Notes: generated from the sequence alone by a model not told the origin. A stretch of 56,174 nt of DNA from Anaerolinea thermophila (GCA_020722345.1 DYKZ01000002.1:1-56174); one strand, 5' to 3'; shown: positions 2,966 to 56,174, numbered from the stretch's first letter. Numbers and translations are program-made.

Positions 2966-3319
2966 ATGAGCCGTGTATTTGTTGTACAGAACCAACACCG
3001 CTGGGACCGCGACAAGCAGCGGTTCGAGCCCAAATTCAACCTCGCCCCGGCGGAGGAGTTCGGTGAGCTGGTGTTCCTGCTCAGCCCGACCGCGGCCCCG
3101 TTCCGCCCGGAGCCCCTCATTGATGAGCTGAAGGAGAAGCTGGCCGACTTCGGGCCGGGGGACCACCTCCTGCTCGTGGGCAATCCGGTCCTGATCGGGT
3201 TCGCCGTCGCCATTGCCGCAGACGCCAATGACGGGGACGTGTCCCTGCTCCAGTGGAGCGGCAAGGACCAACGCTACCTCGCGGTGGACGCCTCGGGCCT
3301 CTTTACTTCTTCCGATTGA
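2966..3319 (+). CDS. Conserved hypothetical protein next to the SNF2 helicase
   Basis: A 117-residue protein with no recognised domain. It has an N-terminal RVFVVQNQ strand, an acidic/Pro-rich middle and a GPGDHLLLVGNP segment that looks like a compact alpha/beta fold. There are no membrane segments. Proteins of this appearance often sit beside helicase genes in related siphophages, but I know of no function. It starts 7 bases after the helicase stop, and its 3' end overlaps the -35 of the next promoter (3302). Confidence 0.65.
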   Translation: MSRVFVVQNQHRWDRDKQRFEPKFNLAPAEEFGELVFLLSPTAAPFRPEPLIDELKEKLADFGPGDHLLLVGNPVLIGFAVAIAADANDGDVSLLQWSGKDQRYLAVDASGLFTSSD

Positions 3320-3330
3320 CCGGCTATACT
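3302..3330 (+). promoter_or_regulatory. Phage promoter P1 (direct-repeat type)
   Basis: -35 TTTACT at 3302-3307, 17-bp spacer, -10 TATACT at 3325-3330. The 11-mer TTTACTTCTTC at the -35 is echoed by TATACTTCTTC at the -10, exactly 23 bp apart. It overlaps the 3' end of the 2966 gene and drives 3379 onward. Confidence 0.8.
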
Positions 3331-3378
3331 TCTTCAGCGTGATCGGAATACCCCCTCACCGAAGAAACGGAGAACCAC

Positions 3379-3924
3379 ATGTCAAGTGAAAACGCATACC
3401 TGGACTATGTCCAACCTCAGACCGCCGGTGGCGAACTGAGCCAACTCACTCAGCTGGCCGAACAACAGGCCGCTGCCCAGTCGAAGGTCGCAGACCTCGA
3501 AGCCCAGCTCAACAAGGCCCGCGAAGAACTCCGCGACATCGCGGAGCGCCAGGTGCCCGAACTCATGGACCAGATCGGCATTGGTGAGTTCAAGACCACC
3601 ACCGGCCTGAAGATCAAGATTGACGAGACGATCCGCGCCAGCATCCCGAAGGCCAAGGCCCCGCTCGCCTTCGCCTGGCTCAAGCAGAACGGCCATGCCG
3701 CGATGATCAAGCGCGTGGTCGCCGTCGCCTTCGGCAAGGGCGAGGACGAGAAGGCTGATGAACTGCGCCAGCGTCTCGCGGACGAGTTCGAGGTGGACGA
3801 CAACGCCCGCGTCCATCCTTCGACCCTTGCCGCTTTCGTCCGCGAGAAGCTGCGTGAAGGCGAGGAAGTCCCCCTGGACCTGTTCGGGGTCCATCGTCAG
3901 CGCGTGTCCAAGATCGAAGTGTGA
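3379..3924 (+). CDS. Coiled-coil protein of the replication region
   Basis: A 181-residue protein with no family I can name. Residues about 18-55 form a strong coiled coil rich in Gln, Ala and Glu. A basic GLKIKIDE/IPKAKAP region follows, then a helical acidic C-terminal half. The start has GGAG 9 bases upstream and lies about 45 nt after the predicted +1 of P1. It precedes the 4067 gene and is followed by a hairpin (3935). A structural or single-strand-handling partner is possible, but this is only context. Confidence 0.65.
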   Translation: MSSENAYLDYVQPQTAGGELSQLTQLAEQQAAAQSKVADLEAQLNKAREELRDIAERQVPELMDQIGIGEFKTTTGLKIKIDETIRASIPKAKAPLAFAWLKQNGHAAMIKRVVAVAFGKGEDEKADELRQRLADEFEVDDNARVHPSTLAAFVREKLREGEEVPLDLFGVHRQRVSKIEV

Positions 3925-6222: not shown

Positions 6223-8085
6223 ATGATAGAAAACCCTCAACCCTTCAAGGAGACTCGCAAAACGCACGGTCCACAAGTACCCTACTCACAAGAACTACAC
6301 GCCCAGAAGTACCGCGGCAGCGGCGAGTCCTTCCGCGAGGCCATGAACCGGATCGCCGCGGCCCTGAAGGACGATGACCAGCACTTCGCGGACTTCCGGG
6401 ACGCCCTCCTGGGCATGCGCTTCCTCCCGGCGGGCCGCATCCAGTCCGCGATGGGCTCCACCCGCCAAGTCACGCCATACAACTGCTACGTCTCCGGGAC
6501 GATCAATGACAGCTTTGTGGACGGCGAAGGCTCCATCATGGTCCGGGCCGCGGAAGCCGCAGCCACGATGCGTATGGGCGGCGGGATCGGCTATGACTTC
6601 AGCACCCTCCGTCCTCGCGGCGACCTGATCCGCAAGCTCCAGTCCCACTCCTCCGGCCCCATCAGCTTCATGCACATCTTCGACGCGATCTGCAAGTGCG
6701 TCGCCTCCTCCGGCCATCGCCGCGGAGCCCAGATGGGGGTGATGCGCGTGGACCATCCCGACATCGAGGAGTTCATTCACGCCAAGCAACCCGGGAAGGA
6801 CGTTCAGCCGCTCTGGGACCTCGTGGCCGAACTCCCGGAAGGGGCCCAGAAGCAGCAGCTGATCATGTCCCTCCAGCAGACCCTGAAGCTGACCGGCTTC
6901 AACGTCTCCGTCGCCATCACCGACAAGTTCATGGAGTGCGTCGCCTCCGGCGAGCCGTTCCCCCTCACCTTCGAGGGCCGGACCTACCGCGAAGTGGACG
7001 CCCGGGCGCTGTGGGACGCGATCATGCGCGGAACCTGGGATTGGGCGGAGCCGGGCGTGCTGTTCATCGACGCGATCAACCGCATGAACAACTTGTGGTA
7101 CTGCGAGACCATCGCCGCCACGAACCCCTGCGGTGAGCAGCCGCTCCCGCCCTACGGTGCCTGTTTGTTGGGCTCCTTCAACCTGGTCAAGTACATCTAC
7201 AAGGACGGGGCGGGCCGCTACGCCTTCGACTGGGACCAGTACCGCGAGGACCTCCCGCAGGTGGTCCGCGCGATGGACAACGTGGTTGATCGCGCGATCT
7301 ACCCGCTGCCGCAACAGAAGCAGGAAGCCAAGGACAAGCGCCGCATGGGCCTCGGGATCACCGGCCTGGCCAACGCCGCCGAAGCCCTGGGCCATGAGTA
7401 CGGTTCGCCCGCCTTCCTCGCCTTCGAGGCGGAGGTGCTGGACACGCTGCGTGATGAGTCCTACCTGGCCAGCGCCCACATCGCCAAGGTCAAGGGCTCC
7501 TTCCCGAAGTTCGACAAGGACAAGTACCTCCAGGGCCAGTTCATCAAGACCCTCCGCGAGGACGTGCGGGACGCCATCGCCAAATACGGCATCCGCAACT
7601 CCCACCTCACCTCCATCGCCCCGACCGGGACCATCAGCCTGTGCGCCGACAACGTCAGCTCCGGGATTGAGCCGGTGTTCGCCTACAGCTTCGACCGCAC
7701 CGTGATCGAGTTCAGCGGCCCGCGGGTGGAGACGGTGGAGGACTACGGTGCCCGCGTGTTCGGGGTCCGCGGCAAGGCCTGCTCCCGCGTCACCGTCCAG
7801 GAGCACGTCGCCGCCCTGACTGTCGCGGCCCAGCGGGTCGATTCCGCGGTGAGCAAGACCTGCAACGTGCCTTCCGACATCAGCTGGGAGGACTTCAAGA
7901 ACGTGTACGTGAGCGCCTGGGAAGGCGGGGCGAAGGGCTGCACCACCTTCCGTCTGGGCGGGAAGCGGTCGGGCATCCTCGTGGTGAAGGATGACGGCGG
8001 CGAGCCCGAAGCGGACGCCCCGGCGGAGGAGCCCGCCAGCCAGTGCCGCATCGACCCGGCCACCGGACGGAGGGAGTGCGAGTGA
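6223..8085 (+). CDS. nrdJ: Adenosylcobalamin-dependent (class II) ribonucleotide reductase
   Basis: A 620-residue reductase of ribonucleotides to deoxyribonucleotides. The active-site NPCGE is at residues 301-305. An N-terminal cysteine at about 88 (PYNCYVSG) fits the first member of the redox pair. The glycine-rich RMGGGIGYDFS and late SIAPTGTISL regions match B12-dependent RNRs. No NrdB small subunit or NrdD activase is seen in the window, which supports class II. The C-terminal tail has two cysteines (CRIDPATGRREC) that could accept electrons. Its stop overlaps the GTG of the next gene. Confidence 0.88.
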   Translation: MIENPQPFKETRKTHGPQVPYSQELHAQKYRGSGESFREAMNRIAAALKDDDQHFADFRDALLGMRFLPAGRIQSAMGSTRQVTPYNCYVSGTINDSFVDGEGSIMVRAAEAAATMRMGGGIGYDFSTLRPRGDLIRKLQSHSSGPISFMHIFDAICKCVASSGHRRGAQMGVMRVDHPDIEEFIHAKQPGKDVQPLWDLVAELPEGAQKQQLIMSLQQTLKLTGFNVSVAITDKFMECVASGEPFPLTFEGRTYREVDARALWDAIMRGTWDWAEPGVLFIDAINRMNNLWYCETIAATNPCGEQPLPPYGACLLGSFNLVKYIYKDGAGRYAFDWDQYREDLPQVVRAMDNVVDRAIYPLPQQKQEAKDKRRMGLGITGLANAAEALGHEYGSPAFLAFEAEVLDTLRDESYLASAHIAKVKGSFPKFDKDKYLQGQFIKTLREDVRDAIAKYGIRNSHLTSIAPTGTISLCADNVSSGIEPVFAYSFDRTVIEFSGPRVETVEDYGARVFGVRGKACSRVTVQEHVAALTVAAQRVDSAVSKTCNVPSDISWEDFKNVYVSAWEGGAKGCTTFRLGGKRSGILVVKDDGGEPEADAPAEEPASQCRIDPATGRRECE

Positions 8086-11811: not shown

Positions 11812-13245
11812 ATGGACCACGCAGCATGGCTGAATGAAGAAACCGGCGAAGCCGCTCAGGAGGCTTACAAGTATTTCATGCGCCCGGACCCGAACCAACG
11901 GGAGTTCCTGGGCCCAATCGAGGAGGAGGAGGACCCGCTGACCGGCATGCGCGCGAAGTTCCGCATGGCCAAGGTGGGGATGGTCCGCAACGCGAAGGAT
12001 GACGACAAGAAGGAGGTCAAGGTGTATCTTGGCTTCAATGACGTCACCTACCCCCCGCACATCCGCATCCCGAACGCCAAGCCCCTTCAGGGCTGGCATA
12101 AGGACAAGCACAACGACAAGCGAGGCTCCCGCGCCCGCCCCTGCTTCAGCGAGGCGATCCTGACGGAGCCTTATGGAGGCTACTGCACCGTGGGTTGCGC
12201 CTTCTGCTACGTCAACAGCGGGTTCCGGGGCTACCGCGGCACCGGCCTCATCAGCGTCCCGGTGAACTACGGCGAGCAGGTCCGCAACATGCTCTCGAAG
12301 TCCCGGACCTCCGCCGCGGGCTACTTCTCCAGCTTCACGGACCCCTTCCTGCCGATTGAGGACGTGTACCACAACACCCAGCAGGGGGCGGAAGCCTTCG
12401 TGGAGTTGGGCCTGCCCATCTTCTTCCTGAGCCGTCTCAGCTACCCGTCCTGGGCCATCGACCTCCTGAAGCGGAACCCCTACAGCTACGCCCAGAAGTC
12501 GCTGAACACCGGCAACGACCGCGACTGGCACAAGTTGTCCCCCGGGGCCATTTCCCTCCAGGACCACATTGACGAAATCGCGGAGCTGCGCCGTCAGGGC
12601 ATCTACACGTCCATTCAGGTCAATCCGGTGGTCCCGGGGATCGTCACCCATGACGACATCCGCCACCTGTTCGAGCGCCTGGCCGCGGTCGGCAACAACC
12701 ACGTGATCGTGAAGTTTGTGGAAGCGGGCTACAGCTGGGCACCGGCGATGATCGAACGCCTCCACAAGCGGTTCGGCCCGGAGCGCACCAAAGCCTTCGC
12801 GGACCTGTTCACGGAGAACCAGGCCGGAGCCCAAAAGACCATCGCGGAGCCGTACCGGGTCGAAGCCCACCAGCTGTACCGGAAGTGGGCGACGGAGCTG
12901 GGCATGACCTACGCGACGTGCTATGAGTACCGCCGCGGGAAGCCCGGAACCGGCGAACCGGCCTGGCTTTCGATGGGCCGCGAAATGATCACCGCGGACC
13001 AGTGCCACGGCCAGCGCGTCCCGATGTTCACCCGGACCGATCTGGGCCAGCCCTTCCAGGAGGTCAAGGAGTGCGCCCCCACCGGCTGTCTCCACTGCGC
13101 GGACGACAACGGCGGGAAGCCCCGCTGCGGGTCGGAGCTGTTCGGCTCCGCGAAGGCCCTGCGCGCGGCGGACTACAAATTCACCGTAGCGCCGGGAGAA
13201 GGGGAGGAGCGCAAGAGCATACCTATCATCCCAGTACGAGACTGA
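11812..13245 (+). CDS. Radical SAM enzyme, hypermodification cassette
   Basis: A 477-residue protein with the radical SAM cluster motif C-x3-C-x2-C (Cys125, Cys129, Cys132 in YCTVGCAFCYV). Downstream are strands typical of the SAM barrel (FLSRLSYPS, SIQVNPVVPG). A C-terminal Cys-rich stretch (CAPTGCLHC and a later Cys) could hold an auxiliary cluster. In phage M6 a radical SAM protein takes part in converting glycyl-thymidine towards aminoethyl-deoxyuridine. The same role here is inferred from co-occurrence. It has its own promoter P3 and a GAGG SD. Confidence 0.85.
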   Translation: MDHAAWLNEETGEAAQEAYKYFMRPDPNQREFLGPIEEEEDPLTGMRAKFRMAKVGMVRNAKDDDKKEVKVYLGFNDVTYPPHIRIPNAKPLQGWHKDKHNDKRGSRARPCFSEAILTEPYGGYCTVGCAFCYVNSGFRGYRGTGLISVPVNYGEQVRNMLSKSRTSAAGYFSSFTDPFLPIEDVYHNTQQGAEAFVELGLPIFFLSRLSYPSWAIDLLKRNPYSYAQKSLNTGNDRDWHKLSPGAISLQDHIDEIAELRRQGIYTSIQVNPVVPGIVTHDDIRHLFERLAAVGNNHVIVKFVEAGYSWAPAMIERLHKRFGPERTKAFADLFTENQAGAQKTIAEPYRVEAHQLYRKWATELGMTYATCYEYRRGKPGTGEPAWLSMGREMITADQCHGQRVPMFTRTDLGQPFQEVKECAPTGCLHCADDNGGKPRCGSELFGSAKALRAADYKFTVAPGEGEERKSIPIIPVRD

Positions 13246-15116: not shown

Positions 15117-15230
15117 ATGATCTTCTCGCCGTTCTGGTGGTACTGGAGCTGGTGGTTGGTCTGGCTCCCTCGCCCCCGCGTCCTTCGCCGGACCGGCAAC
15201 GTCATCTTCGTGGAGTTTAACAAGAAATGA
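15117..15230 (+). CDS. Trp-rich 37-residue peptide
   Basis: The ATG at 15117 has a strong AGGAGGGGG just upstream, and the stop overlaps the next ATG (ATGA at 15227). The N-terminal half has seven Trp and one Tyr among about 17 residues (FWWYWSWWLVW), followed by a basic RPRVLRR stretch. This looks like a short membrane-inserting or membrane-surface peptide. The tight coupling to the dUMP hydroxymethylase gene and the SD make it a likely real gene. Confidence 0.6.
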   Translation: MIFSPFWWYWSWWLVWLPRPRVLRRTGNVIFVEFNKK

Positions 15231-16282
15231 AAGTCATCAAGACCCGCAACGTACAACAGGCCCTCCCGGAGGCCCTGTATCAACTGTCCTTCGAGGGCGT
15301 CCGCCGCGACTCGCGCAACGGCCCCGTGTTCATGTTCCCGGAACCCGTCACCACCGTGTACCTCCGCCCGGCGGAGCGCGTGCTGTTCTGGGCGGAACGG
15401 GACGCCAACCCCTTCTTCCACCTGATGGAAAGCCTCTGGATGCTGGGCGGACGCAATGATGTGGAGTACGTCGCCCGCTTCGTGGACCGCATGCGCAGCT
15501 ACTCGGATGACGGCCTGACCTTCCATGGGGCCTACGGCTTCCGCTGGCGCCAGCACTTCTTCGAGGACCAGCTGCCCAAGATCATCGCCGCCCTGAAGGC
15601 GAACCGCGATGACCGCCGCCAGGTCCTGTCGATGTGGGACGCGGACGCGGACCTGGGCCGTCAAGGCAAGGACCTCCCGTGCAACCTTCAGGCCATCTTC
15701 CAGATCGCCTGCGACGGTCGCCTGGACATGACCGTGACCAACCGCTCCAACGACCTGATCTGGGGAGCCTACGGGGCCAACGCGGTCCACTTCAGCTACC
15801 TCCATGAGTACGTCGCCCGCTCCGTGGGCGTGGAGCAGGGCGTGTATCGTCAGGTCAGCGCCAACTTCCACGCCTATGAGGAGGTGCTGGACAAGGTCGC
15901 CCCGCTCGCGGACCTCGCCGCCAACCCGATGACCGGGAAGGAGACGCCCGACCCCTACGCCGCCGGGATCGCGGAGCCGTACCCGCTGATGTCCACGGAC
16001 CCGGAGGAGTGGAACCAGGAGCTGATGATGTTCCTGAGCGAGCCGGACGCCATGGGCTTCCGTGACCCGTTCTTCCGTCGCGTGGCGATCCCGATGCTGA
16101 AGGCCCACAAGGCTTTCAAGCAGACCTCCAACCCCTCCCGCTTTGACGCCGCCTTGGCGGAGCTGGACAACGTCGCCGCCACCGACTGGAAGCTGGCCGG
16201 GGTGGAATGGATCGAACGCCGCCGCGCCGCCTTCGAGGCTCGCAAGGCCCGGGCGATGGACGATGGCGTGGCATATGAGTGA
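15227..16282 (+). CDS. Thymidylate synthase family, probable dUMP 5-hydroxymethylase
   Basis: A 351-residue thymidylate-synthase-fold enzyme. The catalytic cysteine is Cys152 in KDLPCNLQ. The nucleotide-binding segment is NRSNDLIWGAYGANAVHFS. These features, and a motif that departs from the RSCDxxLG of true thymidylate synthases, fit phage dUMP hydroxymethylases. It would make 5-hydroxymethyl-dUMP from dUMP with methylene-tetrahydrofolate, the first step of thymidine hypermodification. Its neighbours in the cassette support this over ordinary dTMP synthesis. Confidence 0.8.
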   Translation: MKVIKTRNVQQALPEALYQLSFEGVRRDSRNGPVFMFPEPVTTVYLRPAERVLFWAERDANPFFHLMESLWMLGGRNDVEYVARFVDRMRSYSDDGLTFHGAYGFRWRQHFFEDQLPKIIAALKANRDDRRQVLSMWDADADLGRQGKDLPCNLQAIFQIACDGRLDMTVTNRSNDLIWGAYGANAVHFSYLHEYVARSVGVEQGVYRQVSANFHAYEEVLDKVAPLADLAANPMTGKETPDPYAAGIAEPYPLMSTDPEEWNQELMMFLSEPDAMGFRDPFFRRVAIPMLKAHKAFKQTSNPSRFDAALAELDNVAATDWKLAGVEWIERRRAAFEARKARAMDDGVAYE

Positions 16283-50665: not shown

Positions 50666-51835
50666 ATGGCGAAAGTACAAACAAGCCTCGGTGAGCTCGC
50701 GCTGCTCCCGCTCCCGGCCCGCGTGCCGGTTCGGGAGCTGCTGGAGTGGAAAACGGACCTCATGACCTCCTTCAACGGGACGGAGAAGGCGATTCAGCTG
50801 CGGAATCATCCGCGGATGACTCTCACCTACCTCCTCCCGGAGACGGCGGCGGTCAAGCCTCGTGCCTACCTCGCCCAATACGGGGCGCTGGGGCGGCGCT
50901 GGGCAATCCCGCTCTGGTGCGAGGCCCAGCCCATCGGCGGCATCCTTCTCAACACCATCACGATCCAGTGTAACACGGAGCTGTACGACCTCCGGGCGGG
51001 CGGGCTCGCCCTCCTCTGGCAGAGCTATGACCGCTGGGAGCTGGTGGAGATTGAGGCCGTGGCCCCGGGCGAAATCACGCTGACGGACTACCCCGGGGCC
51101 TTCTCCGCCGCCTTCCTGGTGCCGGTGCGGGTCGGGCACATCGACGGCTCGCCCGAACGCAGTTCAAACGGCTATGAGGCTGAAACGTCCGTCCGGTTCG
51201 AGGTCGAGGACATCGAGGCGCTGGCGGAGGATGCCCCGGCGCAGTTTCTAGGACGTGACCTGTACCTAGAGCCAGGCATGATGTCCGCGAGCACCTACGG
51301 GCAGGAAATTACCACCCGCGTTGACCGCGTTGACTATGAACTCGGCAAAGTGGCGCGGCGGACGCCTTGGCGCTACAATAGGGACCTGCGACCGCGACAC
51401 GTGGTGTGCGACGGCCCGGCGGAGGTCCGGGCTTTCCGCAACTGGCTTATGCGGCGCGCGGGCCGGTTCCGGCCCTACTGGAGCCCGACCTTTGAGAACG
51501 ATCTGCGACACAAGTCCACCGGGACCGTCGCGGACAAACTCTTGGTGGAAGCCCGGGAAGGGCTCCTGGATTGGCTCCCGCTGCGCAACCATGTCGCAGT
51601 CCAGACCCTCGCCGGGGCCTGGCTCTGCCGGACGGTGACGGCGGCGGTGCCGCTCCCAGGGAATGCTTCGACCGTTGAACTGACCCTGGACACGGCTCTG
51701 AACGTCCCGGCCCAATCCATCGCCGCGGTCAGCTTCCTCGGGCTTCGCCGGTTGGACACTGATCGAGTAGAGTTGAACTGGTTGGGCAATAGCGTTCTGC
51801 GCTGTACGGTGAACACCCTGGAGATTCAACCATGA
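50666..51835 (+). CDS. Tail protein following the tape measure (distal-tail type)
   Basis: A 389-residue tail protein. WKTDLMTSFNGTEKAIQLR, then HPRMTLTYLLPE and GALGRRWAIPLW are features I know from siphophage proteins of the YuA-like group in this position. Its place after the tape measure suggests the distal tail or hub region. ATGA overlap with the next gene. Confidence 0.72.
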   Translation: MAKVQTSLGELALLPLPARVPVRELLEWKTDLMTSFNGTEKAIQLRNHPRMTLTYLLPETAAVKPRAYLAQYGALGRRWAIPLWCEAQPIGGILLNTITIQCNTELYDLRAGGLALLWQSYDRWELVEIEAVAPGEITLTDYPGAFSAAFLVPVRVGHIDGSPERSSNGYEAETSVRFEVEDIEALAEDAPAQFLGRDLYLEPGMMSASTYGQEITTRVDRVDYELGKVARRTPWRYNRDLRPRHVVCDGPAEVRAFRNWLMRRAGRFRPYWSPTFENDLRHKSTGTVADKLLVEAREGLLDWLPLRNHVAVQTLAGAWLCRTVTAAVPLPGNASTVELTLDTALNVPAQSIAAVSFLGLRRLDTDRVELNWLGNSVLRCTVNTLEIQP

Positions 51836-53277
51836 GTACAAAAGTTGAGATGTACAGATTTGTCGAGCAGGGGCTCAAGGACCCCTTCGACGGCAACCAA
51901 AACTTCTACTTCATCGTGGACAAGTCCGGGTCCATGAATGAACAGGGGTCGCCCGGGATGACCCGGTTCCAGGTCGCCAAGGATCAGCTGAAGCGGGTCC
52001 TGGACGAAATCGACCGGAAGCGGATTGAGAAGAACGTGGCTGTCCATATCGGCATGGCGGCCTTCTCCGGGACCGGGACCGTGACGATTGTCCGCCGGAA
52101 CGTCTCCAGCTCCTCCATCGCGGACCTGAAGGCGTGGATTGATGGGCTGGTCGCTGAGGGCGGGACGCCCTATGACGCGCCCGTGGCCGCGGCGCGCAAC
52201 TACTTCCTGACCCCGACCCCGGCGGACTTCCGCCAGTCCCTGTTCTTCATCACGGACGGGGTGCCGGAGCCCGCCAGCTCTGCCGCGAACGCGGCGAGCC
52301 TCGCGGCGGACATGATCACCCGCACCGGGGCCTTCTCGCCCGCCTCCGGGAATGAGGTGGACATCTATTGTATGTCCGTGGACCATTATGACACGACCTA
52401 TCTTGGGCTGCTCGACAACACGCCCCGGGACGGCGTGCCGGTCCTCTCCTCCACGAACTCGGACGCCTTGTACAACGCCATCCTGAGCGCGGGGCCTACT
52501 GAGTCGGAGGTCTGGACCTTCACGAGCGGGGACGAGCCGGTGGACTACATGGGCGAGACGTACACGCCCGTGCCTATCGGTCGCAGCGAGGCGGAGACGA
52601 AGAACGAACTGAGCCGGGCGAACATCGAAGTCAAGGTGGACCTGGGCAACTCCATGGGACAACGCTGGCTCCACGACCACGTAGAGACGCTGGTCACACT
52701 GACGATCTTCGAGCGGGACGAGGACGATGAAATCAGCATCGTCTGGAAGGGCCGGTTGTCGGGCGTCAAGCCCACCATGAGCGAAATCATCCTCAACTTT
52801 GAGTCCGTGTTCACGTCGCTGCGCCGCCCCGGGCTCCGCGCCCGCTATCAGCGGAGCTGCCGCCACATGCTGTACTCCCGCGGTTGCGGGGTGAGTAAGG
52901 AAGCCTGGGCCGTCAAGGGCGTCCCGACCGCCATCAACGGCCTCGTGGTCACGGTCCCGGAGGCCGCGGCCTACCCCAACGGCTACTTCACCACGGGCAT
53001 CCTCGAAGGCCCGGACGGGACGCTGCGCTTCATCACGAACCACGTGGGGAACCAGCTGACCCTCCTCCGTCCGTTCGAGTCGATGGCGAAGGCTTTGGCG
53101 CTTGACGGCTACGGGCTATCCTATGGCCAGTATTACGGCGGCGCGGCAGTGCGCATGTTCCCGGGGTGCGACCGGACCCGGGGGACCTGCCACGGGCGTT
53201 TCAATAACTTGATGAACTACGGCGGATTTGACTGGATACCCATTCGCAATCCGTTCGACGGTTCATCCATCGTGTAG
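51832..53277 (+). CDS. DUF2163/BR0599-type tail-tip protein with inserted vWA domain
   Basis: A 481-residue fusion. Residues about 22-225 form a von Willebrand factor A domain with MIDAS Asp30-x-Ser32-x-Ser34 (VDKSGSMN), Thr in EGGTPYD and Asp in FFITDGVPEP. Residues about 230-481 match DUF2163/phage BR0599 tail proteins: VWTFTSGDEPVDYMGETYTP, then LRRPGLRARYQRSC and a Cys-rich C-terminus (CHGRFNN). A short native N-terminus (YRFVEQGL) precedes the insert. vWA domains bind protein ligands through a metal, so adhesion is inferred. A related vWA lies in 53711. Confidence 0.85.
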   Translation: MSTKVEMYRFVEQGLKDPFDGNQNFYFIVDKSGSMNEQGSPGMTRFQVAKDQLKRVLDEIDRKRIEKNVAVHIGMAAFSGTGTVTIVRRNVSSSSIADLKAWIDGLVAEGGTPYDAPVAAARNYFLTPTPADFRQSLFFITDGVPEPASSAANAASLAADMITRTGAFSPASGNEVDIYCMSVDHYDTTYLGLLDNTPRDGVPVLSSTNSDALYNAILSAGPTESEVWTFTSGDEPVDYMGETYTPVPIGRSEAETKNELSRANIEVKVDLGNSMGQRWLHDHVETLVTLTIFERDEDDEISIVWKGRLSGVKPTMSEIILNFESVFTSLRRPGLRARYQRSCRHMLYSRGCGVSKEAWAVKGVPTAINGLVVTVPEAAAYPNGYFTTGILEGPDGTLRFITNHVGNQLTLLRPFESMAKALALDGYGLSYGQYYGGAAVRMFPGCDRTRGTCHGRFNNLMNYGGFDWIPIRNPFDGSSIV

Positions 53278-53290
53278 AGGAGGCCAGACC

Positions 53291-53524
53291 ATGGTTTGGT
53301 GGTACATCGCGGTCTTCGTGGTCGCGCTGGTGGTCAGCTACTCGCTGACGCCCAAGCCGCAGAACGCGAAGCCCGCGGGCCTGGGCGACTTCAAGGTGCC
53401 GACCGCGGAGGAGGGCCGGGAAATCCCGGTGCTGTTCGGGACCCGGGACATTGAAGGGCCGAACGTGGTGTGGTTCGGTGACTTGCGCACCGTGGCGATC
53501 AAGAAGAAGGGCGGCAAGAAATGA
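53291..53524 (+). CDS. Small membrane/tail assembly protein
   Basis: A 77-residue protein from ATG 53291 (GAGGAGGCC upstream). One N-terminal hydrophobic segment (WWYIAVFVVALVVSYSL), then GLGDFKVPTAEEGREIPVLFGTR, a pattern conserved at this position in YuA-like siphophages. The PVLFGTR region also occurs in tail-tip proteins. Overlaps the next gene. Confidence 0.75.
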   Translation: MVWWYIAVFVVALVVSYSLTPKPQNAKPAGLGDFKVPTAEEGREIPVLFGTRDIEGPNVVWFGDLRTVAIKKKGGKK

Positions 53525-53727
53525 CGGACGATAGCCAACTGATCATCCGAATGGATGACGTGCGAGCCGTCAAGATGTGCTCCCGCGGGGCGCGGGCCTT
53601 CTTCGAGCGACACGGGCTCAACTGGTCGGAGTTCCTGGCGAACGGGATCGCCGCGGACAAACTCGTGGCCACCGGCGATCCGATGGCCCTCCAAGTAGTG
53701 GAGGCGGCCCGTGGGCGGAAGCAGTAA
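53521..53727 (+). CDS. Small conserved tail-region protein
   Basis: A 68-residue protein. RMDDVRAVKMCSRGARAFFERHGL, then EFLANGIAADKL is conserved in the tail-tip cluster of similar phages. Function unknown. It overlaps both neighbours, so it is translated with them. Confidence 0.75.
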   Translation: MTDDSQLIIRMDDVRAVKMCSRGARAFFERHGLNWSEFLANGIAADKLVATGDPMALQVVEAARGRKQ

Positions 53728-56174
53728 GAAAGTCACCGTTGGATACAAATACTACTTGGGCATGCACATGATCCTGTGCCACGGTCCGGTGGATCGCATC
53801 CTGCGCATTCGAGTGGACGGGAAGGACGCCTGGTTGGGCGACCGCAACAGCGGCTCCATCTACGTGGACAACCCGGACCTGTTCGGCGGCGAAAGCCGGG
53901 AGGGCGGTATCCAGGGCACGGTGGACTTCGAGCCCGGCGGACCGGCCCAGGGGCAGAACAGCTACCTGCTCAGCAAGCTCGGGTCCCTGATTCCGGCCTA
54001 CCGGGGCGTTGTCGGCGTGGTCCTCCGTCAGGTGTACCTCGGGCTGAACCCGTACCTGAAGAAGTGGGCATTCAGGGTCCAGCGCATTCATATGCGCCAG
54101 AGCGGCGCGGCTCAGTGGTACTACCCGAAGGCTGAAATCAAGGTCGCCTCGAACTTCAAGCAGCGCCAAATGTTCTTCTTCGCCCTGGACACGTCCGGGT
54201 CGATGGACACGGTGGTGTCGGGCGGCTTGACCCGTCTCCAGCTCGCCAAGACCCAGATGAAGGCGGTGCTGGACGCTATCGACCAACTGCGGATTGACTC
54301 CAAGGTCCAGGTGGACATCGCTGTCTGCGGCTGGAGCACGTCCACGACCCAGATGAGCCGCTTCAACGTCTCCTCCGCGGACATACAGGACCTCAAGAAC
54401 TTTGTGGACGGCTTGTCCGCCTCGGGAGGGACCGACTTCAGCCAGCCCTACGGCAACGCGGTCAACTGGTTTCAGCCCGGCTCCGCGGACGGTCGCCGCC
54501 GGGCGATGTTCTTCATCACGGACGGCCTCCCGGAACCCGCCACCACGGTCGATCAGGCGCTGGCCGTCGCGGGTCCGATGATCCGCAAGGAGGGCGTCTG
54601 GGCGCAGAGCCCCGTGGACGTGTACGGCATCAGCATCGACCTCTCAAACACCTCCTACATCGCGTTGGTCGAGAACACGCCGCAGGACGGTATCCCGGTG
54701 GTTGACTCCGCGGAGTCCAACGCCCTGTACAACGCGGTGTTCTTCGCGGTGATGGGCGACAGCTCCGCCATGAACCCGGCCCACATCATCCGGGAGTGCC
54801 TGACCGACCCCGATTGGGGCATGGGCTACTCGGACGCGGAGGTGGATGACCAGTCCTTCATGGCCGCGGCGGACCAGCTCTACAACGAGCGGATGGGCAT
54901 CAGCATCCTCTGGGACCGCCAGACCCCGATTGAGGACTTCATCGGGGAGATTGTGAAGCATATCGACGCGGCCCTGTACGTGGACCGCAAGACCGGCCTG
55001 TTCACTCTGAAGCTGATCCGCGGAGGATACAACAAGGACAACCTGCTTCACCTGAACGAAGACAATATTGACAAGATCGAGAACTTCACGCGCCCGGCCT
55101 TCGGGGAGCTGACGAACGCGGTCACGGTCAACTACTGGAACGTGAATACCGGGAGGGACGCGAGCGTGTCCGCCCAGGACATCGCGCTTCAGCAGATGCA
55201 GGGCGTCACTATCGGGACCACCATCCAGTACCCGGGATTTGTGGACCCCGCCATTGCCTCCCGGGTCGCGCAACGTGACCTCAAGGCCCTCTCCTCGCAG
55301 CGGGCCTCGTGTACCATCTACGCGGACCGGACGGCGAAGGACCTGACGATTGGCGACGTGTTCAAGCTGTCCTGGGCGGACTACAACCTCAGCGAGGTGG
55401 TGATGCGCGTCAACGGCATCGCCTATGGCGACGGACGGACGAACCGCATCAAAATCACCTGTACTGAGGACGTGTTCGACCTCCCGGAGACGGCGCTGGT
55501 CACGCCCGACCCGCCGCAATGGGAGGACCCGAACAGCGGCCCGACCCCGGTGGCTGATCAGATCGTGTACGAAATCCCGTACATCGAGCTGGTTCAACAG
55601 CAGGGGCAGGCGCAGACTGACCAGACCCTGGCCGCGGAGCCTGATCTGGGCTACGTGGGGGCGGCGGCGGGCCGTCCGAACGTGGCGAGCCTCAACGCCC
55701 GTCTCTACACGGCGGCGGGCCTGGGCGAAACCTTCGAGGAAGCCGGGGTGCTGGACTTCTGCCCCTACGCGAAGCTGTCCGCACCCGTTGGGCGATTCAA
55801 CACTGAGTTCTCCATACAAGGCGGCGTGGACCTTGATCTGGTCGAGGTCCCGTCATGGGCCCAGATCGGGGAGGAGCTGGTGTGGATCGAGGCGCTGGAC
55901 CCGGTGCTCAACACCGTGACGGTCCGCCGCGCGATCTATGACACGGTGCCCAAGGAGCACGGCGCGGGGTCCGTCATCTACTTCTGGGACGCCTTCCCGG
56001 CGGGCTCCCCCACGGAGTATGTCAACAGCGAGCAGGTCCGTGTCAAGCTGGCGACCGTCACGGGCTCCGGCCAGCTGGACATCGCCGCGGCCCCGGAAAT
56101 GTCCCTGACGATAGAGGGACGCGCGGCCCGGCCCTACCGCCCGGCGAACCTCCGCATCAACGGCGAGCTGGACG
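53711..56174 (+). CDS. Tail-tip / central fibre protein with inserted vWA domain (partial)
   Basis: At least 821 residues from GTG 53711; the window ends before the stop. The N-terminal part (1-145: VGYKYYLGMHMILCHGPVD, then LFGGESREGGIQG and RVQRIHMRQ) and the part from about 354 (MNPAHIIRECLTDPDWGMGY) match tail-tip proteins of related siphophages. Between them, residues about 148-352 are a vWA domain with MIDAS Asp160-x-Ser162-x-Ser164 (LDTSGSMD), SGGTDFS and FFITDGLPEP. The insert clearly resembles the one in 51832, including NTPQDGIPV and SNALYNAV near its end. It probably contacts the host. Confidence 0.85.
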   Translation, partial: MGGSSKKVTVGYKYYLGMHMILCHGPVDRILRIRVDGKDAWLGDRNSGSIYVDNPDLFGGESREGGIQGTVDFEPGGPAQGQNSYLLSKLGSLIPAYRGVVGVVLRQVYLGLNPYLKKWAFRVQRIHMRQSGAAQWYYPKAEIKVASNFKQRQMFFFALDTSGSMDTVVSGGLTRLQLAKTQMKAVLDAIDQLRIDSKVQVDIAVCGWSTSTTQMSRFNVSSADIQDLKNFVDGLSASGGTDFSQPYGNAVNWFQPGSADGRRRAMFFITDGLPEPATTVDQALAVAGPMIRKEGVWAQSPVDVYGISIDLSNTSYIALVENTPQDGIPVVDSAESNALYNAVFFAVMGDSSAMNPAHIIRECLTDPDWGMGYSDAEVDDQSFMAAADQLYNERMGISILWDRQTPIEDFIGEIVKHIDAALYVDRKTGLFTLKLIRGGYNKDNLLHLNEDNIDKIENFTRPAFGELTNAVTVNYWNVNTGRDASVSAQDIALQQMQGVTIGTTIQYPGFVDPAIASRVAQRDLKALSSQRASCTIYADRTAKDLTIGDVFKLSWADYNLSEVVMRVNGIAYGDGRTNRIKITCTEDVFDLPETALVTPDPPQWEDPNSGPTPVADQIVYEIPYIELVQQQGQAQTDQTLAAEPDLGYVGAAAGRPNVASLNARLYTAAGLGETFEEAGVLDFCPYAKLSAPVGRFNTEFSIQGGVDLDLVEVPSWAQIGEELVWIEALDPVLNTVTVRRAIYDTVPKEHGAGSVIYFWDAFPAGSPTEYVNSEQVRVKLATVTGSGQLDIAAAPEMSLTIEGRAARPYRPANLRINGELD

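Follow-up and report, generated by a model that had tools for sequence, protein, structure and literature searches.

The window, by which we mean the whole 56,174-nucleotide stretch of DNA analyzed in this work, ends in a phage tail-tip module with the gene order tape measure, T, H, two small genes, and J. Gene T (50666..51835, + strand) encodes a predicted distal tail protein of 389 amino acids that lacks a von Willebrand A (vWA) domain in this phage, although homologues elsewhere carry one. Gene H (51832..53277, + strand) encodes a DUF2163-type protein of 481 amino acids, the predicted upper baseplate (hub 1) protein. A vWA domain (PF13519) occupies its residues 20-226 (51889..52509, + strand), and the DUF2163 hub part, recognized by PF09931, PF09356, and relatives in the PDB, makes up residues 227-481 (52510..53274, + strand). 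Two small conserved tail genes follow on the + strand, one with an ATG at 53291 (53291..53524) and one of 68 amino acids (53521..53727); both are found at the same position in the related phage records PaMx28, CN1, and QH3. Gene J (53711..56173, + strand), whose start codon is the GTG at 53711, encodes a predicted baseplate hub protein, identified by PF13550 and hub profile matches. Its vWA domain spans residues 149-352 (54155..54766, + strand), as delimited by alignment to J proteins without the insert.

The J frame is open at the window end, where a scaffold gap of Ns breaks it off. Another contig of the same assembly (G000), C395, encodes J without interruption, at 960 amino acids. This contig (111.8 kb) holds an exact copy of the window tail module and also a diverged second phage, which has a vWA pair too (C395:86-89 kb). 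In that second phage and in contig C116, an N gap of ~100 bases falls at the same point of J and is followed by the same short tail, which looks like a scaffolding artifact. Elsewhere in the window, the phage encodes a DNA photolyase-like gene (11812-13245; PHROG 9252, 1069 bits), a ribonucleotide reductase (6223-8085), and a thymidylate synthase-like gene (15227-16282).

Identity of the proteins that carry the inserts

In phmmer searches, T matched gp49 of phage JBD30 (8rk3_U, E 7e-10) and the distal tail protein of phage Chi (8vjh_B, E 4e-6), and it was assigned to PHROG 1082 (tail). Sequence searches matched H to Chi gp27 (8vjh_D, E 1e-24) and JBD30 gp50 (8rk3_g, E 4e-18), while profile searches matched J to the hubs of Chi (8vjh_A, E 1e-169) and JBD30 (8rk3_o, E 4e-134). 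In H, two Pfam domains lie downstream of the vWA, PF09931 (baseplate hub N-terminal attachment domain, residues 226-355) and PF09356, and in J a PF13550 domain (Phage-tail_3, residues 402-566) comes after the vWA. An AlphaFold2 (AF2) model of J (mean pLDDT 81) aligned with the JBD30 and Chi hubs at Z scores of 37 and 36 over ~598 residues, with an overall rmsd of ~20 Å. We put this rmsd down to a different predicted placement of the domains, so the model supports the domain order of J and not its exact shape.

From these matches, T is a predicted distal tail protein, H a predicted upper baseplate protein (hub 1), and J a predicted baseplate hub. Both sequence and structure place the module among JBD30/Chi-type tips, with H as the DUF2163 upper baseplate protein and J as the hub. 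In the JBD30 structure, the distal tail, upper baseplate, and hub proteins make the baseplate collar and cup (PMC11445458).

Two vWA domains with complete MIDAS motifs

Pfam VWA_2 (PF13519) was detected in H at residues 26-143 (E 7e-10, 39.9 bits) and in J at residues 156-272 (E 6e-9, 37 bits), in both cases above the cutoff of 27 bits. Each domain has a complete MIDAS. In H, this consists of the DKSGS motif (D30 to S34; 51919..51933, + strand), T112 (52165-52167, + strand), and D142 (52255-52257, + strand), which correspond to the invariant columns D11, S13, S15, T93, and D123 of our alignment A1. In J, the ligands are provided by the DTSGS motif (D160 to S164; 54188..54202, + strand; near-invariant D160, S162, and S164 of alignment A2), T241 (54431-54433, + strand), and D271 (54521-54523, + strand), the last two also in near-invariant columns of A2. 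The two domains are 44-45% identical over ~200 residues (BLASTP E ~1e-50). A first-pass annotation of this DNA had proposed that both proteins carry a vWA with a full MIDAS and that the two inserts resemble each other. The Pfam matches and the aligned metal ligands bear out the former, and a similarity far above chance bears out the latter. In the AF2 models, most of the H insert was predicted with a pLDDT of ~81-97, and the inserts aligned with solved vWA domains at Z scores of ~20, as expected for the alpha/beta vWA fold.

The insert junctions were defined with homologues that lack the domains. In the Rhodobacter capsulatus phage RcSpartan (L025), neither H nor J contains a vWA. Its H reads ELYRFVEG-DSAFIYTVTSAD at the insert site, and the window vWA lies between the ELYRF-type and WTFTSGD-type segments. 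The J site is flanked by the conserved ..AQW..A.I and MNPAHIIRECLT segments; RcSpartan J has a linker of 14-16 residues before MNPAHIIRECLT at this point, and the site is empty in the hubs of Chi and JBD30. Relatives without the insert, among them RcSpartan and, for H, Bhz59, provided clean junctions, with the host folds intact on both sides, as the first reading had anticipated. The place of each insert had also been called correctly, and only its limits needed adjustment, to residues about 20-226 in H and about 149-352 in J.

Distribution of vWA domains and contents of the J socket

To place the pair among related phages, we carried out a census of phage records, viral-scan loci with alignments, and J loci of bacterial genomes, read by domain models. 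The resulting set comprised 101 complete T-H-J sets in which the J proteins are at most 90% identical to each other. The counts are not population frequencies, since one viral scan began from vWA sequences. A vWA was present in J only in 47 of the 101 sets, in both H and J in 12, in T only in 5, in T and J in 4, and in none of the three proteins in 33; in no set did H carry a vWA without one in J. The combination of H and J was found in a Mesyanzhinovviridae-type group, and T carries a vWA in RcSpartan and others. The census shows the pair to be one form of a wider pattern (J only, H and J, T only, T and J), and neither unique nor its basic element. The Pamexvirus-named relatives AAT-1 and phiH2 match H solely outside the vWA, so the H vWA is dispensable in these phages. 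By a loose regular-expression count over 162 distinct phage vWAs, the DxSxS motif is retained in 161 and a TDG-type motif in all. We also observed a vWA of the same family inside a hub-like protein of another family (L096:7212-10130), which is unrecognized by the J models.

The site occupied by the vWA in J holds other domains as well. Across the 101 sets, it contained a vWA in 63, a stretch of 3-16 residues in 13, and another domain of 130-348 residues in 25. Two of the non-vWA domains are ConA-like lectins (Laminin_G_3, E 1.4e-9 and 3.5e-4), and a jelly-roll group gave weak BetaGal_ABD2/CBM-like matches (Pfam E 0.003-0.07). As read from these alignments, one loop of J is a socket: phages leave it empty or place a vWA, a ConA-like lectin, a jelly-roll, or a domain of another type there. 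In several phages, T also begins with a domain of the jelly-roll group. One locus, L172, has a jelly-roll in both T and J (3207-3630 and 6433-6879; phmmer 1e-23), a doubling that parallels the vWA pair. At the Mesorhizobium loci L241, L243, L249, and L253, the J socket contains inserts of ~340 residues that are perhaps repeat or propeller-like.

Origin and copying of the vWA domains

A tree was built from 63 phage vWAs and a small set of 10 bacterial ones that lacks LapA-type domains. In this tree, the phage vWAs are separate from the 10 bacterial ones (support 100/99), and a single clade unites seven of the nine H vWAs (100/99). A scenario of two separate H acquisitions was dropped, since a single clade of all nine H vWAs is allowed by the AU test (p 0.11). 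Window-type J vWAs are the best or nearly the best matches of H vWAs, even where the J of the same phage differs; for most phages, the J closest to a given H vWA is not that of the same phage. Because the H vWAs best resemble the J vWAs of the window lineage, one vWA family was likely copied into H. The first-pass annotation had gone further, to one cassette duplicated into two hosts. That the cassettes are homologous stands, while a direct copy within this phage does not follow from the tree, in which the branch uniting window-type H and J vWAs has a support of 86/49.

The T vWAs require at least six changes on the tree, and a single T clade was rejected (AU p 8e-59). The domain also occurs at three insertion points in T, and the sequences indicate that T has gained a vWA several times. 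At L077, the T and J vWAs are mutual best matches (187 versus 130 bits), and by this comparison they read as a clear copy within one phage. The top bacterial match, L282, turned out to be an unrelated secreted-type protein.

Divergence of the vWA domains relative to their hosts

The window was compared with the phage locus L010, a close relative. Most of the upstream module is conserved at 96-99% identity, which drops to 61-91% in the last part of the tape measure gene and in T. Identity reaches 94-99% in the H vWA versus 77-84% in the hub part of H, and 91-98% in the first part of J and the J vWA, with subsequent decay to ~70%. The H vWA has 0.07 synonymous differences per site and its two flanks have 0.33 and 0.42 (Fisher 2e-14); for the J vWA the value is 0.10, against 0.16 and 0.40 (p 9e-8). 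We read the low-divergence island at the H vWA as probable recombination, which may have moved the vWAs or, more simply, the surrounding core. Whichever part recombined, the vWA of the window-L010 pair acts as an independent unit. No comparable drop in synonymous divergence was seen at the H vWA in the other seven H pairs, and two J pairs (CN1-MW2 and ZS04-R6L) gave weak differences of mixed direction (p ~0.02).

In several phage pairs, amino acid change is faster in the vWA than in the rest of the protein at similar pS. For the J proteins of the window and L040, for instance, pN is 0.27 in the vWA versus 0.05 and 0.13 outside. A metal site that is kept within a fast-changing remainder fits what would be expected of a ligand-binding domain.

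Relation to described systems

In profile searches, the solved sequence closest to the phage vWAs is the vWFA of the LapA adhesin (9no5, E 7.5e-16), followed by human collagen VI (2.4e-14) and the vWFA of an Aeromonas hydrophila RTX adhesin (9das, 2.7e-13). Structure matches to animal vWA receptors were counted as shared fold only. In LapA-type and RTX adhesins, ligand-binding domains protrude from host domains that are "split" (PMC12077191), and the vWFA of LapA is required for peptide-dependent biofilm formation (PMC9180339). The adhesin domains (9no5 and 9das) thus resemble the phage vWAs in emerging from a split host, but they are parts of very large bacterial adhesins that are secreted and carry RTX repeats, and they are only 21-24% identical to the phage H vWA. 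We did not class the phage vWAs as RTX adhesin vWFAs: their hosts are tail-tip proteins, and the likeness is at the domain level only.

A second point of comparison is the "evolved Dit/Tal" proteins of Gram-positive siphophages, in which inserted carbohydrate-binding modules help host binding; in lactococcal phages, the insert assists adsorption (PMC7291167, PMC10688798). As in the window phage, an extra domain lies in a loop of a conserved tail-tip core protein, and relatives exist with and without it. The two differ in that evolved Dit/Tal inserts are carbohydrate-binding modules of phages with Gram-positive hosts, whereas the window phage has vWA/MIDAS domains on a Gram-negative-type tip, its lectin-like counterparts being confined to the J proteins of relatives. 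The hosts of the insert differ as well, being the DUF2163 upper baseplate protein and the hub, with one domain in two neighbors. Closer in architecture, the tips of JBD30 (8rk3) and Chi (8vjh) share the same core of distal tail protein, DUF2163 upper baseplate protein, and hub. JBD30 gp49 carries two oligosaccharide-binding inserts (PMC11445458; baseplate gp49, gp50, and gp53), and no vWA was found in the JBD30 or Chi baseplate proteins.

PHROG 15205 (tail assembly protein) matches H across both the vWA and the hub part (residues 5-481, E 2e-163), but its description names no vWA role, no copies in J or T, and no socket. Neither our literature searches on vWA/vWF-type domains in phage tails nor the publication on phage Lydia (Mesyanzhinovviridae) yielded a description of such inserts. 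The papers retrieved on phage vWA domains deal with MoxR co-chaperones, cobaltochelatase, jumbo-phage genes, and contractile injection system fibers, with no tail-tip inserts among them. The earlier statement that no such pair had been described holds for the papers that these searches retrieved, though PHROG 15205 already contains the vWA-hub fusion and named phages, such as Variovorax phage BAPIC_0004, possess the pair.

Proposed function

Adhesion is the best-supported function for these domains. We propose, with a probability of roughly two in three, that both vWAs are accessory, probably metal-dependent adhesion modules on the tail tip of a Gram-negative siphophage. This reading is based on the conserved MIDAS, the alternative domains in the socket, the repeated gain by T, the LapA-type relatives, and the low-divergence island in H. 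Each vWA would project from the surface of the baseplate collar; the AF2 models are of monomers, with low confidence in parts of H. The domain would bind a host-surface ligand via a metal ion at the MIDAS, and vWAs on two neighboring subunits may provide avidity or a second contact. The grip would hold the phage until the true receptor-binding proteins trigger ejection. Counting against this model, vWA domains are also known in assembly and chaperone roles.

An unlikely alternative is a structural clasp, in which MIDAS contacts between the H and J vWAs, or between a vWA and another tip protein, would lock the baseplate until receptor binding. Such contacts are in keeping with the adjacency of H and J in the JBD30/Chi-type tip (PMC11445458), with the J vWA that accompanies every sampled H vWA (12/12), and with the near identity of both vWAs between the window and L010. 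However, a vWA is found in J alone in 47 of 101 sets and in T alone in 5, so a partner vWA is unneeded, and the J socket of relatives is empty or holds unrelated domains. The absence of H-only cases comes from one or two lineages. In addition, the core (T, hub, and C-terminal part of J) has strongly diverged between the window and L010 while the vWAs are nearly unchanged, which argues against tight co-adaptation. The suggestion in the first-pass annotation that the vWAs bind each other to lock the tip is thus unlikely as a general role: most carriers have a single vWA, and other phages have a lectin-like domain or no insert in the J socket.

We consider it just as improbable that the vWAs bind mucus, extracellular matrix, or environmental biofilm and so gather phages near their hosts. 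The nearest bacterial relatives are indeed domains of biofilm and surface adhesins, but the position on the tip collar, and not on the capsid, favors a role at the cell surface. Least probable is a service in tail-tip assembly or folding with no host-contact role thereafter: vWA proteins are MoxR ATPase co-chaperones in some viruses, with a proposed part in virion assembly (PMC7824862), but here the vWA is covalently within virion proteins, close relatives assemble without it, the socket accepts lectin-like domains too, and no MoxR-type partner gene was noticed (the search being unsystematic).

Returning to adhesion, the sequences allow a broader model that we put forward tentatively, at somewhat less than even odds. 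On the tail-tip collar of Gram-negative siphophages, three adjacent core proteins (T, H, and J) with a few sockets might swap domains from a shared adhesion-domain pool, and in the window phage the two MIDAS vWAs would provide a metal-dependent, integrin-like host grip. It is known that extra binding domains are inserted in tail-tip core proteins of Gram-positive siphophages (PMC7291167). In the literature searched, we found no description of a vWA/MIDAS module in this role, of the H and J positions, of the repeated doubling, or of a pool shared by T, H, and J, nor of integrin-like metal-dependent receptor binding in phage tails.

If the vWAs bind the host via a metal ion, phages would share an adhesion chemistry of bacterial and animal surfaces. 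The state of the J socket (vWA, lectin-like, jelly-roll, or none) could also serve as a marker of accessory host binding that is readable from sequence. Such a marker would cover many Gram-negative siphophages and prophages, in which most tail-tip genes go by the labels "hypothetical," "tail assembly," or "FAD/FMN-containing dehydrogenase." The last of these annotations is carried by the DUF2163 tail proteins of many Pseudomonas phages and is at odds with their baseplate match.
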